Shown here piece by piece: positions 17,843-62,475 of a DNA stretch of 64,000 nt; the first letter of the stretch is position 1; each line of letters starts with the position of its first letter. The position numbers and the translations under genes are program-made. Below the pieces are notes generated by a model. It ran no database searches. It worked only from the letters and a program-made list of their open reading frames with translations, and was not told where the DNA came from. Origin of the DNA: a bacterium (GTDB lineage: Bacteria; Joyebacterota; Joyebacteria; Joyebacterales; Joyebacteraceae); contig JALGWI010000003.1 of assembly GCA_025774245.1 (NCBI GenBank), positions 1 through 64,000 on the forward strand, given 5' to 3'.

Positions 17843-17875
17843 CGTCGACGACGAGCGACCTCCGCCCGTCGTGGG

Positions 17876-17994
17876 GTTCCTTCTCTCATCCAGACTCTCA
17901 CTGTCGGCGCCTGAATTCCACAGGCTCTGCGAAACCTGAATCCGCTCGCGGGCTATCACCGCCGGTGGGGAATTGCACCCCGCCCCGAAGGAAC
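17876..17994 (-). promoter_or_regulatory. FMN riboswitch (RFN element)
   Basis: Minus strand: CTTCGGGGCGGGGTGCAATTCCCCACCGGCGGTGATAGCCCGCGAGC...GCCGACAGTGAGAGTCTGGATGAGAGAAGG matches RFN consensus. Confidence 0.97.
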
Positions 17995-18017
17995 ACGTAT
18001 TCCGTATGCAGCCTCTA

Positions 18018-26621: not shown

Positions 26622-26660
26622 TCGCACGGTGCGAGGCGAGGCCCGTTTCGCACCGTGCGA
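26622..26660. promoter_or_regulatory. Paired 13-bp palindromic sites (candidate upstream activator sites)
   Basis: TCGCACGGTGCGA (26622-26634) and TCGCACCGTGCGA (26648-26660), 26 bp apart start-to-start. Confidence 0.55.
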
Positions 26661-26692
26661 CACGGGGCGTCGCGCGCCCCACCGGGCAGCGT

Positions 26693-26727
26693 ATCCGTAA
26701 CATACCAACATACAATGCGTTACGGAT
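26693..26727. promoter_or_regulatory. Perfect 9-bp inverted repeat upstream of sigma54 promoter
   Basis: ATCCGTAAC (26693-26701) ... GTTACGGAT (26719-26727). Confidence 0.55.
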
Positions 26728-26753
26728 GCTCGACTTCGCGGTTGCATTTGTGA

Positions 26754-26770
26754 TTGGCACGTCAATTGCA
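26754..26770 (+). promoter_or_regulatory. Sigma54 (RpoN) -24/-12 promoter
   Basis: TTGGCACGTCAATTGCA; GG-N10-GC spacing as in consensus TGGCACG-N4-TTGCW. Confidence 0.8.
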
Positions 26771-26960
26771 CGATTTGATGTGGGGATCCCCCGGAACAGG
26801 CTCTGGGGAGGGCTCGCGATTGGGAAGGAGGTGAGGCCGGAACGGAGTACGCCGGGCGGGATCGCCAGTCCGGCGCGTTCGCATTCGCGGTCGTGGGAGC
26901 GCGATCTCCCGCCCGCGGATTCGCCGGGGGCCATAGTGAGCGCCAAAGGAGTGAGGCACG

Positions 26961-28184
26961 ATGAAGAACCTGCTATCGATTGCTGTCGTCCTGATCGCTG
27001 TGTTCGCAGTCGCGACGTGCAGCTTCGCGAAGAAGACCGAAGCGACGTGCGCCAAGACGGTGGCCGTGAACGAGGGACGCAGCCCGGTCATCCTCTTCTT
27101 CGACGACATGGAGAGCGGGACGAACGGATGGACGAGCTTCGACAACACTGCTACGACGACACCCAAGTTCCATCTCGACACGTACTACGCATACGAGCGG
27201 ACGTACTCGTGGTGGTGCGGCGAGCTGAACGCGGCCTTTTCGGGTGGTGACGGCTACGCCAACGGTTGGGACATGCGGCTCGACATCCCGCCGACCGACG
27301 TGAGCGGCGCAACGTACCCGATCCTGACCTACGCTCTTCGTTACGACTCGGAGCCCGGGTACGACTACACCTACGTCCAGGCGGAGAGCCTCGGCGTGTT
27401 CCGGAATCTGAACCGCGGCTACAACGGAACGAGCGGCGGCTGGCAGGATCTTGGCGCCTACGGATTCGCCATTGGGAACTACGACAATCCGTTCGTCGGC
27501 CGCTTCCGCTTCATCTCGGACGGCGCGTGGTCGGACGCCGACGGACTCTACGACACCGACGGCGGCGCGTTCCACATCGACAACGTCAAGCTCTTCGATT
27601 TCTACGGCGGCATGACCTACTTCCTCGACGATGGCGAGGGCGGCGGCCTCTGCGTGCCCTCCGTTCCGGCATCGGCCGGCGACTGGTGGCACATCATCGA
27701 CAGGGCTTGCCCGGCGTACAGCGCCCCGCACTCGTGGTGGTGCGGCGACGACGCCGACACGGGCCTCATCCCGCCGAACCTGAGCAACGCCCTCTACTCC
27801 CCCGTCATCAACACGGTCGGGGTCTCCATCTGCACCATGCGGATGATGCTGCATGCCGAGGTGCCCACGGTCGACAACGACTACTGGACCGAGGAGGTCA
27901 CGACCGACGGGGGCTCGAACTGGCAGCTCACGGGAGCCTGGTGGGGCGACTTCGGGCAGTGCGACGGTTGGGGCACGTCCGGCATCAACGGCACCGACCT
28001 CTCACAGTATCTGCCGGGCAACTCGTTCCAGTTCCGCCTGACCTTCTTCACGACCGACAACGGGTGTGGTCCGGGCGCCGCCGGTGGCGCCGGCATCACG
28101 CTGGACGACTTCTGGGTCGAGGACTGGACGGGAACGGCCGTCGAGGAGACGACCTGGGGCAAGTTGAAGGCCCTCTACCGGTAG
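26961..28184 (+). CDS. Secreted two-module beta-sandwich-like protein of unknown function
   Basis: Signal peptide MKNLLSIAVVLIAVFAVATCSFA; strong RBS aaaggag; duplicated FDD.E...SWWCG...module; C-term TTWGKLKALYR. Confidence 0.8.
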   Translation: MKNLLSIAVVLIAVFAVATCSFAKKTEATCAKTVAVNEGRSPVILFFDDMESGTNGWTSFDNTATTTPKFHLDTYYAYERTYSWWCGELNAAFSGGDGYANGWDMRLDIPPTDVSGATYPILTYALRYDSEPGYDYTYVQAESLGVFRNLNRGYNGTSGGWQDLGAYGFAIGNYDNPFVGRFRFISDGAWSDADGLYDTDGGAFHIDNVKLFDFYGGMTYFLDDGEGGGLCVPSVPASAGDWWHIIDRACPAYSAPHSWWCGDDADTGLIPPNLSNALYSPVINTVGVSICTMRMMLHAEVPTVDNDYWTEEVTTDGGSNWQLTGAWWGDFGQCDGWGTSGINGTDLSQYLPGNSFQFRLTFFTTDNGCGPGAAGGAGITLDDFWVEDWTGTAVEETTWGKLKALYR

Positions 28185-57812: not shown

Positions 57813-57904
57813 GGCAGTCCTCGTTCGGAACGGGAGAGAAAGGACCCTCTGCTCTGGCACGCGTCCGCCTCGACCTCCGCACCCGGAGAGGACGAGGTCA
57901 GTTG

Positions 57905-57998
57905 GCTCCAGTCAAGCTCCCCCGCGGCACACCGAGGAACCAGCTTACGGCTGCTGCCTCCCGGCCCTGACCGGATTCACCGGGCTCGGTTGCGCGGG
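57905..57998 (-). ncRNA. ffs: Signal recognition particle RNA (small bacterial 4.5S type)
   Basis: Minus strand GTGAATCCGGTCAGGGCCGGGAGGCAGCAGCCGTAAGC...GTGTGCCGCGGGGGAGCTTGACTGG: conserved SRP tetraloop/internal-loop region. Confidence 0.92.
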
Positions 57999-58196
57999 AC
58001 CTGACCTTCAACGCTACTTCTCCGCGCTCCCTGCCGGACACAGGAGGCCTCGAGCAGATGTTCGACCCCGCTGTAGCGGATTGCGGGTCACAGGGCACCG
58101 CTAGTTCCCCGTCTAGCGCGCCAGAGCAGAAGGCCCTTCTGAGATCTCACGGCCCCGGGGCCGCCTCGAGTTCGATCGAGAGGCCCCGGGGAAAGC

Positions 58197-59193: not shown

Positions 59194-60165
59194 TCAGTGG
59201 ACGCCCTCCTCGCCGTAGACCGCGACCCGGTTCTTGCCGGCCGCCTTCGCCTGGTAGAGGGCCTGGTCCGCGTGCTCCAGGAGTTCCCGCTTGCTCTCCG
59301 CCTGGGCCGGGAAGGTCGCGACGCCGACGCTGATCGTCAGGCGTCCGCCCGGAAGCGCCTCCTCGCCCTCGAAATCGGACTCGTCGATGAGGTTCCGGAC
59401 GCGCTCCGCCATCCTCCTCGCGGAGTCGGGCTTCACCTCCGGCACGATGACCGCGAACTCCTCCCCTCCGTACCGCGCGACGAAATCGCAGTTGCGGGAG
59501 GAGCGCTTGAGGAGCCGCGCGAGCCTGCGGAGAATGAGGTCGCCGGCCGGGTGCCCGTGGGTGTCGTTGTATCGCTTGAAGTCGTCGATGTCGATCATGA
59601 GCAGACTCACGACCCTGCCGTAGCGCTCCGCGCGCGAGACCTCGGTGTCGAGGAGCTGGTGGAAGAAGCGGTGGTTGTAGAGCTCGGTCAGGCCGTCCTT
59701 CCGCGAGAGTTCCTTGTAGAACTCGCCCTCGGCCGCCCGCTTCCGGAGCACGCGCGCCTCCAGAGCGTTCGAGACGATGATCCTGATCTGGTCGATGTTG
59801 AACGGCTTCGTGATGTAGTCCGACGCTCCGAGCTTCATCGACTCCACGGCCGTCTCCATCGAGGCGTACCCGGTCATCACAACCACGGCCACCTCGTACG
59901 GCAGCCGCTTCGCCGCGGCGACGACCCCGAGCCCGTCGAGCTCCGGCATGACGATGTCGGTGATGATGACGTCGTACTGGTCGACCTGCATCTTGTCGAC
60001 GGCCTCGCGGCCCGAGCACGCGAGATCGATCGAGTACCCTTCCTCGCCGAGCACCTCCTTGAGGAACTCGCGCATGATCTCCTCGTCGTCGACGATGAGA
60101 AGTCGCGCGACCTGGCGCTCCTCGGTCTCTTCGCTCTCGTGCTGGATGTGATCCGGCGTGATCAC
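59194..60165 (-). CDS. Response regulator with GGDEF diguanylate cyclase output
   Basis: LLIVDDEEIMREFL, IITDIVMPELDG, TKPF; RNCDFVARYGGEEF (I-site RxxD five residues before GGEEF). Confidence 0.93.
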   Translation of the reverse strand: MITPDHIQHESEETEERQVARLLIVDDEEIMREFLKEVLGEEGYSIDLACSGREAVDKMQVDQYDVIITDIVMPELDGLGVVAAAKRLPYEVAVVVMTGYASMETAVESMKLGASDYITKPFNIDQIRIIVSNALEARVLRKRAAEGEFYKELSRKDGLTELYNHRFFHQLLDTEVSRAERYGRVVSLLMIDIDDFKRYNDTHGHPAGDLILRRLARLLKRSSRNCDFVARYGGEEFAVIVPEVKPDSARRMAERVRNLIDESDFEGEEALPGGRLTISVGVATFPAQAESKRELLEHADQALYQAKAAGKNRVAVYGEEGVH

Positions 60166-62324
60166 TGCAGTCCTCCGGAAATGCCCACCTCGACGCTGGC
60201 TTCGGCCAGCGGCAGCCGCACGGTGAAGGTTGTGCCTTCGCCGACGCTGCTCTCCACCTCGATCTGTCCCTCGTGGTCCTTGATGATGCCGTAGCTCACG
60301 GAGAGCCCGAGGCCCGTTCCCTCACCGGTCTCGCGCGTGGTGAAGAAGGGCTCGAACACCCTCGGGAGATCGTCTTCGCCGATGCCGCATCCCGAGTCCT
60401 CGAACGCAACCTCGAGGGTCTCGACGCCGTCCTCGTCCGCGGTGCGGAGCGTCCGCACCGTGAGCGTGTCGTCGGCGACCATCGCGTCGCGCGCGTTCAT
60501 GATGATGTTCACGAAGACCTGCCTCAGCTGGTACGGGTCGCCCAGGACCGGAAGGCGCGAACTGTCGTAGTGCGTGTCGAGCCGGATGCCCCTTGTGGTG
60601 AGCTGCCTGCCCGTCACGCGTAGCGCCTCGCGCACCACGTCGTGGATGTCGATCTGGGAGTAGGCCGACTGCGAAGCCTGGGAGAACGTCAAGAGGCTCT
60701 GCACGATGCCCCGGCAGCGCTGCGAGGCCTTCTCGATCGAAGTCAGGTGCTTGATGAGCCGCTCCCACTCCTCGTCGGTCAGGTCCTGGCGGTCCATCTC
60801 GCGGACCTTCTCGAGCGTCAGCTGCGCGTAGCCGAGGATGCCGCCCAGGGGATTGTTGAGCTCGTGCGCAACGCCCGCGGCCATCTCGCCGACTGCCGCC
60901 AGCCGACCCGACTGCACGACCCTGGTCTGCATCTCCTGAAGCTCCTGCGTCCTGTCGGCGACACGCCCCTCCAGCTCGCTGTTCAGCCGCTCGAGCTCCG
61001 ACCTCATCTCCTCGAGCTCCCGCGTGCGCTCCTCGACCTTCTCCTCGAGCTCTCTGTTCCACTCCTCGGCACTCGAACGCGACTTCTCGGCGCCCTCGTA
61101 CATCTTCGCGTTGTCGATCGTGCGCGCCACCTGGTTCGCCAGCATCTGGAGGAGTTCCACCTGGGCGCGACCGAACGCGCGCGGCTCGGCGCTCTGGGCC
61201 GACAGCACGCCGATCAACCTCTCGCCCGACGTGAGCGGGATGCCGAGCCAGGTTCTCACGTACTCCCGTCGTCGCCGGGACTCCTCGAGTATCCAGTGGT
61301 CGAGCTTGCGTTCCTCGTCGCCTTCGGTGATGTCGTCGACGAGAAGCACCTCTCGCTTGCGGACCACCCACCCCGTGAGTGTGTCTCCAGGCTTGGTCTT
61401 CCGCGGCGGCAGGCGTCGGTCCCCGGCTCCCCGGACGCGGTACTCGATCTCCTCGCTCTCCTCGTCGTAGAGGCACACGGCGAGCATCGAGGTTGCGAAG
61501 AGCTCCTGCGTGCTCTCCTCGAGGTGATCGACGAGCTCATCGAGTTTGAGCGTGGACGACAGGAGCTGCCCCACGGCGTTGATGGCCTTGAGCTCGGAGA
61601 CGCGCTTCTCGAGCGACTCCTTCGTCTCCCAGAGTGTCTTCCCCGCGGCGCTCGACACAATGAGCACGACCGCGAGGAGCGGGAAGGTCGTCGAGTCGCC
61701 CGGCATGTAGGCCGCCGCCAGGAGCAGGGCGAGCGGCAGCATCGCGATCTCGACGATGACGCCGGTCCCGCCGATCCACCGCGTGTAGCTCCTCAGCGAA
61801 CGCCTCGGTTCCGCTCCGGAGACGGAGCGCACGATGACGCTCGTCGCGGCGAGCATCGCGAACATACCCACGAAGCGCGCGGCGTCCACGAACGTGACGC
61901 CGACCGATAGGAGCTTTCCTCCCGTGAGCACGTACGCGCAGCCCGCGGCGAAGACCGCGATCACCTGGACCCCGACCTCCCGGGCGAGCCGCTTCCGCCG
62001 GTGCCCGAAGCAGGCGAGTTCCACGGCGATCGTGCCGGCCGCGGTGACGATCAGCGCGACGTCCGTTCCGAAGAGCGCCACCGTGGCGATGAAGACCGCG
62101 GCGCTGAAGTTGACGTAGGTGTTCTTGCCGATCTGGAAGGCGAAGAGCCCGGTCGCCAGGGCGAGGGCGCTCATGATCCCGACGGCGCCCCAGTCGGTCC
62201 ATTCGATCCCGTAGACCGCGATCGCGAGAAGGAGGACCGCGCCGGCTGGCGCCATCCACCAGATGTCCCTGCGGACGGCCGGGACGAGCGTTTCCTTCTC
62301 GGGTATTGCGTCAGTGGTCTGCAT
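60162..62324 (-). CDS. Membrane sensor histidine kinase (multi-TM N-domain, GAF, HisKA, HATPase)
   Basis: Multiple TM; GAF-like region; VAHELNNPLGGILGYAQL; NIIMNARDAM; GCGIGEDDLPRVFEPFFTTRETGEGTGLGLSVSYGI. Confidence 0.93.
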   Translation of the reverse strand: MQTTDAIPEKETLVPAVRRDIWWMAPAGAVLLLAIAVYGIEWTDWGAVGIMSALALATGLFAFQIGKNTYVNFSAAVFIATVALFGTDVALIVTAAGTIAVELACFGHRRKRLAREVGVQVIAVFAAGCAYVLTGGKLLSVGVTFVDAARFVGMFAMLAATSVIVRSVSGAEPRRSLRSYTRWIGGTGVIVEIAMLPLALLLAAAYMPGDSTTFPLLAVVLIVSSAAGKTLWETKESLEKRVSELKAINAVGQLLSSTLKLDELVDHLEESTQELFATSMLAVCLYDEESEEIEYRVRGAGDRRLPPRKTKPGDTLTGWVVRKREVLLVDDITEGDEERKLDHWILEESRRRREYVRTWLGIPLTSGERLIGVLSAQSAEPRAFGRAQVELLQMLANQVARTIDNAKMYEGAEKSRSSAEEWNRELEEKVEERTRELEEMRSELERLNSELEGRVADRTQELQEMQTRVVQSGRLAAVGEMAAGVAHELNNPLGGILGYAQLTLEKVREMDRQDLTDEEWERLIKHLTSIEKASQRCRGIVQSLLTFSQASQSAYSQIDIHDVVREALRVTGRQLTTRGIRLDTHYDSSRLPVLGDPYQLRQVFVNIIMNARDAMVADDTLTVRTLRTADEDGVETLEVAFEDSGCGIGEDDLPRVFEPFFTTRETGEGTGLGLSVSYGIIKDHEGQIEVESSVGEGTTFTVRLPLAEASVEVGISGGLQ

Positions 62325-62459
62325 GCTGCAACCCCCCGGGCCGCGACGTCGGGCCTCACGGCCCCCCGCGGCTTCGACCCCTGGACACCAGGGCAGGCTC
62401 GACCGCGGCCCCGGAGCCCCTGCGGCGTCCGGGCAGCGATCTCGCACGCGCGGGATAAA

Positions 62460-62475
62460 TGCAAGTCACGTGCCA
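62460..62475 (-). promoter_or_regulatory. Sigma54 (RpoN) -24/-12 promoter for histidine kinase operon
   Basis: Minus strand TGGCACGTGACTTGCA; GG-N10-GC spacing. Confidence 0.7.

Follow-up and report, generated by a model that had tools for sequence, protein, structure and literature searches.

What drives the gene at 26961-28184, and what becomes of its product once it has been exported, are the two questions raised by this locus. The initial annotation described it as the only plus-strand gene of the window (the whole stretch of 64,000 nucleotides analysed here), encoding a secreted protein of two related modules under the control of a sigma54 promoter with palindromic activator sites. The GC3 pattern agrees that no other plus-strand gene is present, and the other long plus-strand open reading frames of the window resemble antisense shadows.

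A conserved -24/-12 element

We considered two features at the outset:
26755-26770, plus strand: sigma54 -24/-12 promoter TGGCACGTCAATTGCA, unchanged in all 15 syntenic orthologs, present in 0 of 16 paralogs
26961-28184, plus strand: gene for the secreted protein of 407 aa, read as a signal peptide, two MAM-like beta-sandwich modules, a linker and a C-terminal tag

The sequence TTGGCACGTCAATTGCA at 26754-26770 places GG at 26756-26757 and GC at 26768-26769, giving the GG-N10-GC geometry, and the consensus TGGCAC-N5-TTGC is matched without mismatch at 26755-26769. The motif alone is weak proof of a promoter, since sequences within two mismatches of it are no more frequent in the window than chance would have them (19 observed, 30 expected from shuffles). 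The exact pattern TGGCACN5TTGC occurs twice within the window and at 18 sites genome-wide, compared with 4 for a reversed control pattern.

The frequency of loose matches might be taken to favor the view that this -24/-12 match arose by chance and that the gene is driven from a vegetative promoter, but comparison with related genomes makes that view highly improbable. All 11 specified positions of TGGCAC-N5-TTGCA are identical in 15 of 15 syntenic orthologs, drawn from eight genera of one phylum (L032 and L033 are counted among them on synteny), while the flanking columns are mostly identical in 5-9 of the 15 and the surrounding DNA is at chance. The element was found at none of 16 paralogs. 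In the orthologs the promoter lies at most about 230 bp upstream of the start codon, and the gene order is fixed across the family, with selA on one side of the gene and an nhaD-like transporter gene on the other. It is this conservation amid diverged flanks, and not the motif match, that leads us to regard the sigma54 promoter as genuine; the case is near the strongest obtainable from sequence. The initial annotation had also made its promoter dependent on the presence of rpoN and bEBP genes, and the genome has both: an rpoN gene (PF04552, E=5e-60, C27) and eight strong matches to the bEBP domain PF00158. Transcription is predicted to start near 26780. An uncultured phylum thereby gains a well-supported sigma54 target with a testable activator site, and one that is kept in all eight genera examined of the family.

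The second exact TGGCACN5TTGC of the window, TGGCACGTGACTTGCA (62461-62475, minus strand), is just upstream of the minus-strand gene 60162-62447, which reads as a sensor-like membrane protein and is followed by a response-regulator-like gene (59194-60165). Elsewhere in the genome, as judged by reading, some of these sites precede genes resembling two-component or GGDEF-type signalling proteins, and further ones precede M23-type peptidase-like and exported-protein genes. The window also carries an FMN riboswitch (17874-17996, minus strand) upstream of riboflavin-like genes, and a bacterial large SRP RNA (57857-58121, minus strand) adjoining a tRNA cluster.

Upstream dyads and the leader

Several symmetrical elements precede the promoter, with distances given from the T of TGGCAC:
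26622-26634, no strand assigned: palindrome TCGCACGGTGCGA, upstream copy, exact, at -133
26648-26660, no strand assigned: palindrome TCGCACCGTGCGA, second copy, exact, at -107
26693-26727, no strand assigned: inverted repeat ATCCGTAAC-N17-GTTACGGAT, between the palindromes and the promoter
26698-26722, no strand assigned: conserved core TAAC-N17-GTTA of the inverted repeat, the best-supported activator-site candidate

Both TCGCAC palindromes noted earlier are thus exact and in place, as is the 9-bp inverted repeat between them and the promoter. Their proposed role as activator sites fared less evenly. The initial annotation had suggested a genome scan for TCGCAC-N1-GTGCGA at other -24/-12 sites, and this returned no further copies: TCGCACNNTGCGA sites occur only twice in the 3.2-Mb genome, both upstream of this gene, so they do not represent a general bEBP site. 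A general bEBP site shared by the sigma54-like promoters was rejected for both dyads, as the genome's other 17 such promoters have no exact copy of the TCGCA dyad or of the TAAC dyad.

Neither congener (G001 or G002) has the TCGCAC dyads, and most genera lack them too, although the promoter itself is kept there. A single TCGCA-N3-TGCGA is nevertheless exact in two orthologs of genus g3 (L023 and L024) at about -126, nearly the same distance from the promoter as here, with one mismatch in L022; the chance expectation for this recurrence is 0.003 orthologs. That distance argues against the palindromes having some other function, either as the site of a regulator of the divergent selA or as a hairpin in a transcript, and not as sigma54 enhancers. 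Their absence from the congeners and their uniqueness in the genome speak for such a function, as does the fact that the two copies are mutually reverse complementary and could pair (arm 13, gap 13). We regard it as a substantial possibility, if somewhat short of even.

The core of the inverted repeat has a wider distribution. TAAC-N17-GTTA is exact in five orthologs from three genera (L001, L019, L020, L026 and L032) and has one mismatch in L028, and it is found in the orthologs at -56/-57 or at -45, positions about one helical turn apart. When TAAC/GTTA spacings from 10 to 25 were scanned, exact matches appeared at N17 only, with 0.0 expected from shuffles. Several orthologs have neither the TCGCA nor the TAAC dyad, and since neither is kept in all orthologs, no single activator site is universal. 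Being better conserved, TAAC-N17-GTTA is ranked above the TCGCAC dyads as the likeliest bEBP site, and TCGCA-N3-TGCGA may be a second, lineage-specific one.

One further element lies downstream of the promoter:
26825-26831, plus strand: SD-like AAGGAGG in the leader, with no start codon at the usual distance

Of 13 orthologs compared here, 12 have it (as AAGGAGA in L019) at a distance of 69-87 nt downstream of TGGCAC. A leader peptide following it was considered; among the leaders read, an ATG stands at the right distance only in L019, and the proposal was rejected for the rest. No known RNA family was found in the leader, where the search matched miRNA models alone, well short of the gathering score in each case, and single-sequence folds differ among orthologs, with no common structure seen.

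The product and its C-terminal tag

A signal peptide was called by inspection, in agreement with the earlier view of the product as secreted. The structure model (28 relatives, mean pLDDT 78) has two beta-sandwiches, at about residues 43-214 and 218-388, followed by a loose linker and, at 398-406, a low-confidence C-terminal helix. The two related modules proposed earlier are therefore present in the model as two sandwiches, but sequence similarity between them is confined to 12 residues (E=0.003). Foldseek matches in the PDB include the InhA MAM domain, reelin repeats, the meprin MAM domain, CBM22, CBM61 and Eph ligand-binding domains. The best match is 4yu5 (E=7e-7, but TM 0.26 over the query); whole-chain TM scores are low (0.2-0.3 over the query), and single domains such as Eph and CBM61 reach about 0.5-0.6 over the target. 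A sequence search found no solved relative, and no Pfam or NCBIfam model scores above its cut-off, the InhA MAM model PF20773 being below at E=8.4 and 6.3 bits against a cut-off of 26.9. At least nine paralogs, this protein included, are encoded in the genome. From the predicted fold, we think it reasonable, with the moderate confidence given to the full account below, to expect a non-enzymatic, MAM-like (reelin- or CBM-like) adhesion or carbohydrate-binding protein, presumably at the cell surface.

The last residues of the protein hold the feature that we had least expected:
28140-28181, plus strand: coding sequence of the C-terminal tag VEETTWGKLKALYR, residues 394-407 of the protein, of which 398-406 are predicted with low confidence as a helix

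The motif, with consensus [ST]-P-V-E-x-x-[ST]-W-G-x-I-K-[AG]-[LM]-[YF]-R, stands at the end of most full-length paralogs and of every ortholog read, and unrelated proteins end in it as well. A profile built from 22 tails found 97 sites in the genome; 77 of these were read, and 76 had the core motif. The invariance of W and K is partly by construction, as the search selected for both, while the exact C-terminal position is not: W stands exactly nine residues from the end (W counted) in 69 of the 76. A signal-peptide-like start was seen in 64 of 75 tagged proteins read, and a C-terminal transmembrane helix or hydrophobic stretch in 0 of 76. The carriers have unrelated folds (pectate-lyase-like and other beta-helix, starch-binding, choice-of-anchor J, and many unnamed). 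In all, about 90 exported proteins of the genome share the tag, which would place it on an estimated 3% or so of the genes and defines a large exported set, most of it without a family name. No description of the tag was found in the literature or family libraries searched, and it is apparently undescribed. One exported protein of repeated modules (L072) has a tag-like AETTWGRLKHSFHR between modules in addition to its terminal tag.

Every one of the 20 genomes of the phylum examined, all from one family, has the tag, at 24-78 per genome. Of 366 genomes sampled outside the phylum, 29 contain one or more matches, with 6-39 apiece in 12 of them; in 30 such tags that were read, W is 7-11 residues from the end, mostly 9. 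The translocon protein SprA is encoded in all 29 tag-positive outside genomes compared with 142 of the 366 overall, a co-occurrence with a probability of 2e-13 were the two independent, although SprA marks a related group of phyla, so that shared ancestry can explain much of the association. The host genome has SprA too (TIGR04189, in a 2368-aa frame, G000 C51).

The two-module domain itself comes in three forms, distinguished by a terminal tag, a T9SS type A domain or a tag placed within a loop. In L109, L118 and L138 it lies in frames of 1458-1706 residues that have the type A domain at the end and no tag. In a paralog subfamily (L006, L119, L121-L124, L130, L132, L137 and L141) the WG tag is inserted between two strands of module 1, with none at the C-terminus. 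The exchange of tag and T9SS domain on the same module suggests that both serve export or display. The loop form favors recognition of the helix itself over a C-terminal signal that is cleaved off. The tag probably sorts or docks exported proteins at the cell surface. We considered whether it might replace T9SS sorting altogether, and rejected this, as at least 97 type A domains are present in the same genome; the two signal types coexist.

A more specific and more novel reading, to which we give a little under even chances, is that the tag belongs to a new class of sorting signal in SprA-bearing phyla: a short helix without a transmembrane segment or beta-sandwich domain, able to act both C-terminally and within a loop, recognised by a putative envelope receptor, and used as an alternative to the T9SS C-terminal domain (CTD) by some 25-90 exported proteins per genome. 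If so, a compact and position-flexible kind would be added to the known C-terminal signals, and there would be a direct way to seek the machine that reads it. Alternatively, the tag might be a docking helix, holding already exported proteins on a scaffold or matrix and having no part in crossing the outer membrane. A docking motif can occur both C-terminally and in a loop, as this tag does, and the model has a short helix after a loose linker; the exchange with a T9SS export domain suggests instead that the two act at the same step, and we think docking alone rather unlikely. Short C-terminal tags can also direct proteolysis, as is generally known, and this one is short, C-terminal and almost invariant at its end, as might be expected of a site that some periplasmic protease or quality-control factor recognises. 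Such a degron is hard to reconcile with about 90 diverse exported carriers per genome, with the basic end, or with conservation in an internal loop, and we give it very little weight.

The joint explanation that we favor, with moderate confidence, would run as follows. A bEBP bound upstream, likeliest at TAAC-N17-GTTA and in some lineages possibly at the TCGCA-N3-TGCGA dyads as a second site, would open the promoter at 26755-26770, from which sigma54 RNA polymerase would transcribe the gene. Sec would export the product, which may then act as an adhesion or carbohydrate-binding protein at the cell surface. Its last 14 or so residues would be a phylum-wide sorting or docking tag, for which the SprA (T9SS)-bearing envelope would have a dedicated receptor, and it would take the part played in sister proteins by the T9SS C-terminal domain. 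This tagged surface-protein candidate belongs to a deep-sea-sediment bacterium, and the tag is a more surprising discovery than the promoter.

Comparison with known systems

As in known sigma54 promoters, TGGCAC-N5-TTGCA is found here together with dyads at the usual distances, in a genome with rpoN and bEBPs. The locus differs from them in that one member of a large paralog family is driven, in that no single upstream site is common to all orthologs, and in the conserved SD-like AAGGAGG within the leader. The product may resemble the InhA MAM (PF20773), choice-of-anchor J and Cleaved_Adhesin families in the predicted fold of its modules, and another tagged protein of the genome matches PF07675 and NF038128, whereas the 407-aa protein itself is below the cut-off of every such model.

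The tag resembles the T9SS type A domain (TIGR04183, Por_Secre_tail) in its C-terminal position, in its occurrence, in genomes with SprA, on many Sec-exported proteins whose folds are unrelated, and in its exchange with that domain on the same module. The 407-aa protein has no NCBIfam match, to TIGR04183 or any other model, up to E=10. The T9SS CTDs described in work that covers the short ones of Prevotella intermedia are 40-82 residues long, with beta strands and the motifs B, D and E, and the shortest T9SS signals in the literature consulted have 40-55 residues with beta strands (PMC11969387); the tag, in contrast, has about 14 residues, is predicted to be helical, lacks motifs B, D and E, and can occupy a loop. 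Like PEP-CTERM, GlyGly-CTERM and MYXO-CTERM, it is short, is found on dozens of exported proteins per genome and has a basic last residue. The CTERM tags contain a transmembrane helix (PMC11980579), whereas this tag has none, nor an invariant Cys, PEP or GG motif, and no CTERM model matched among the proteins searched. It thus fits neither the T9SS CTD definition nor that of the CTERM tags.
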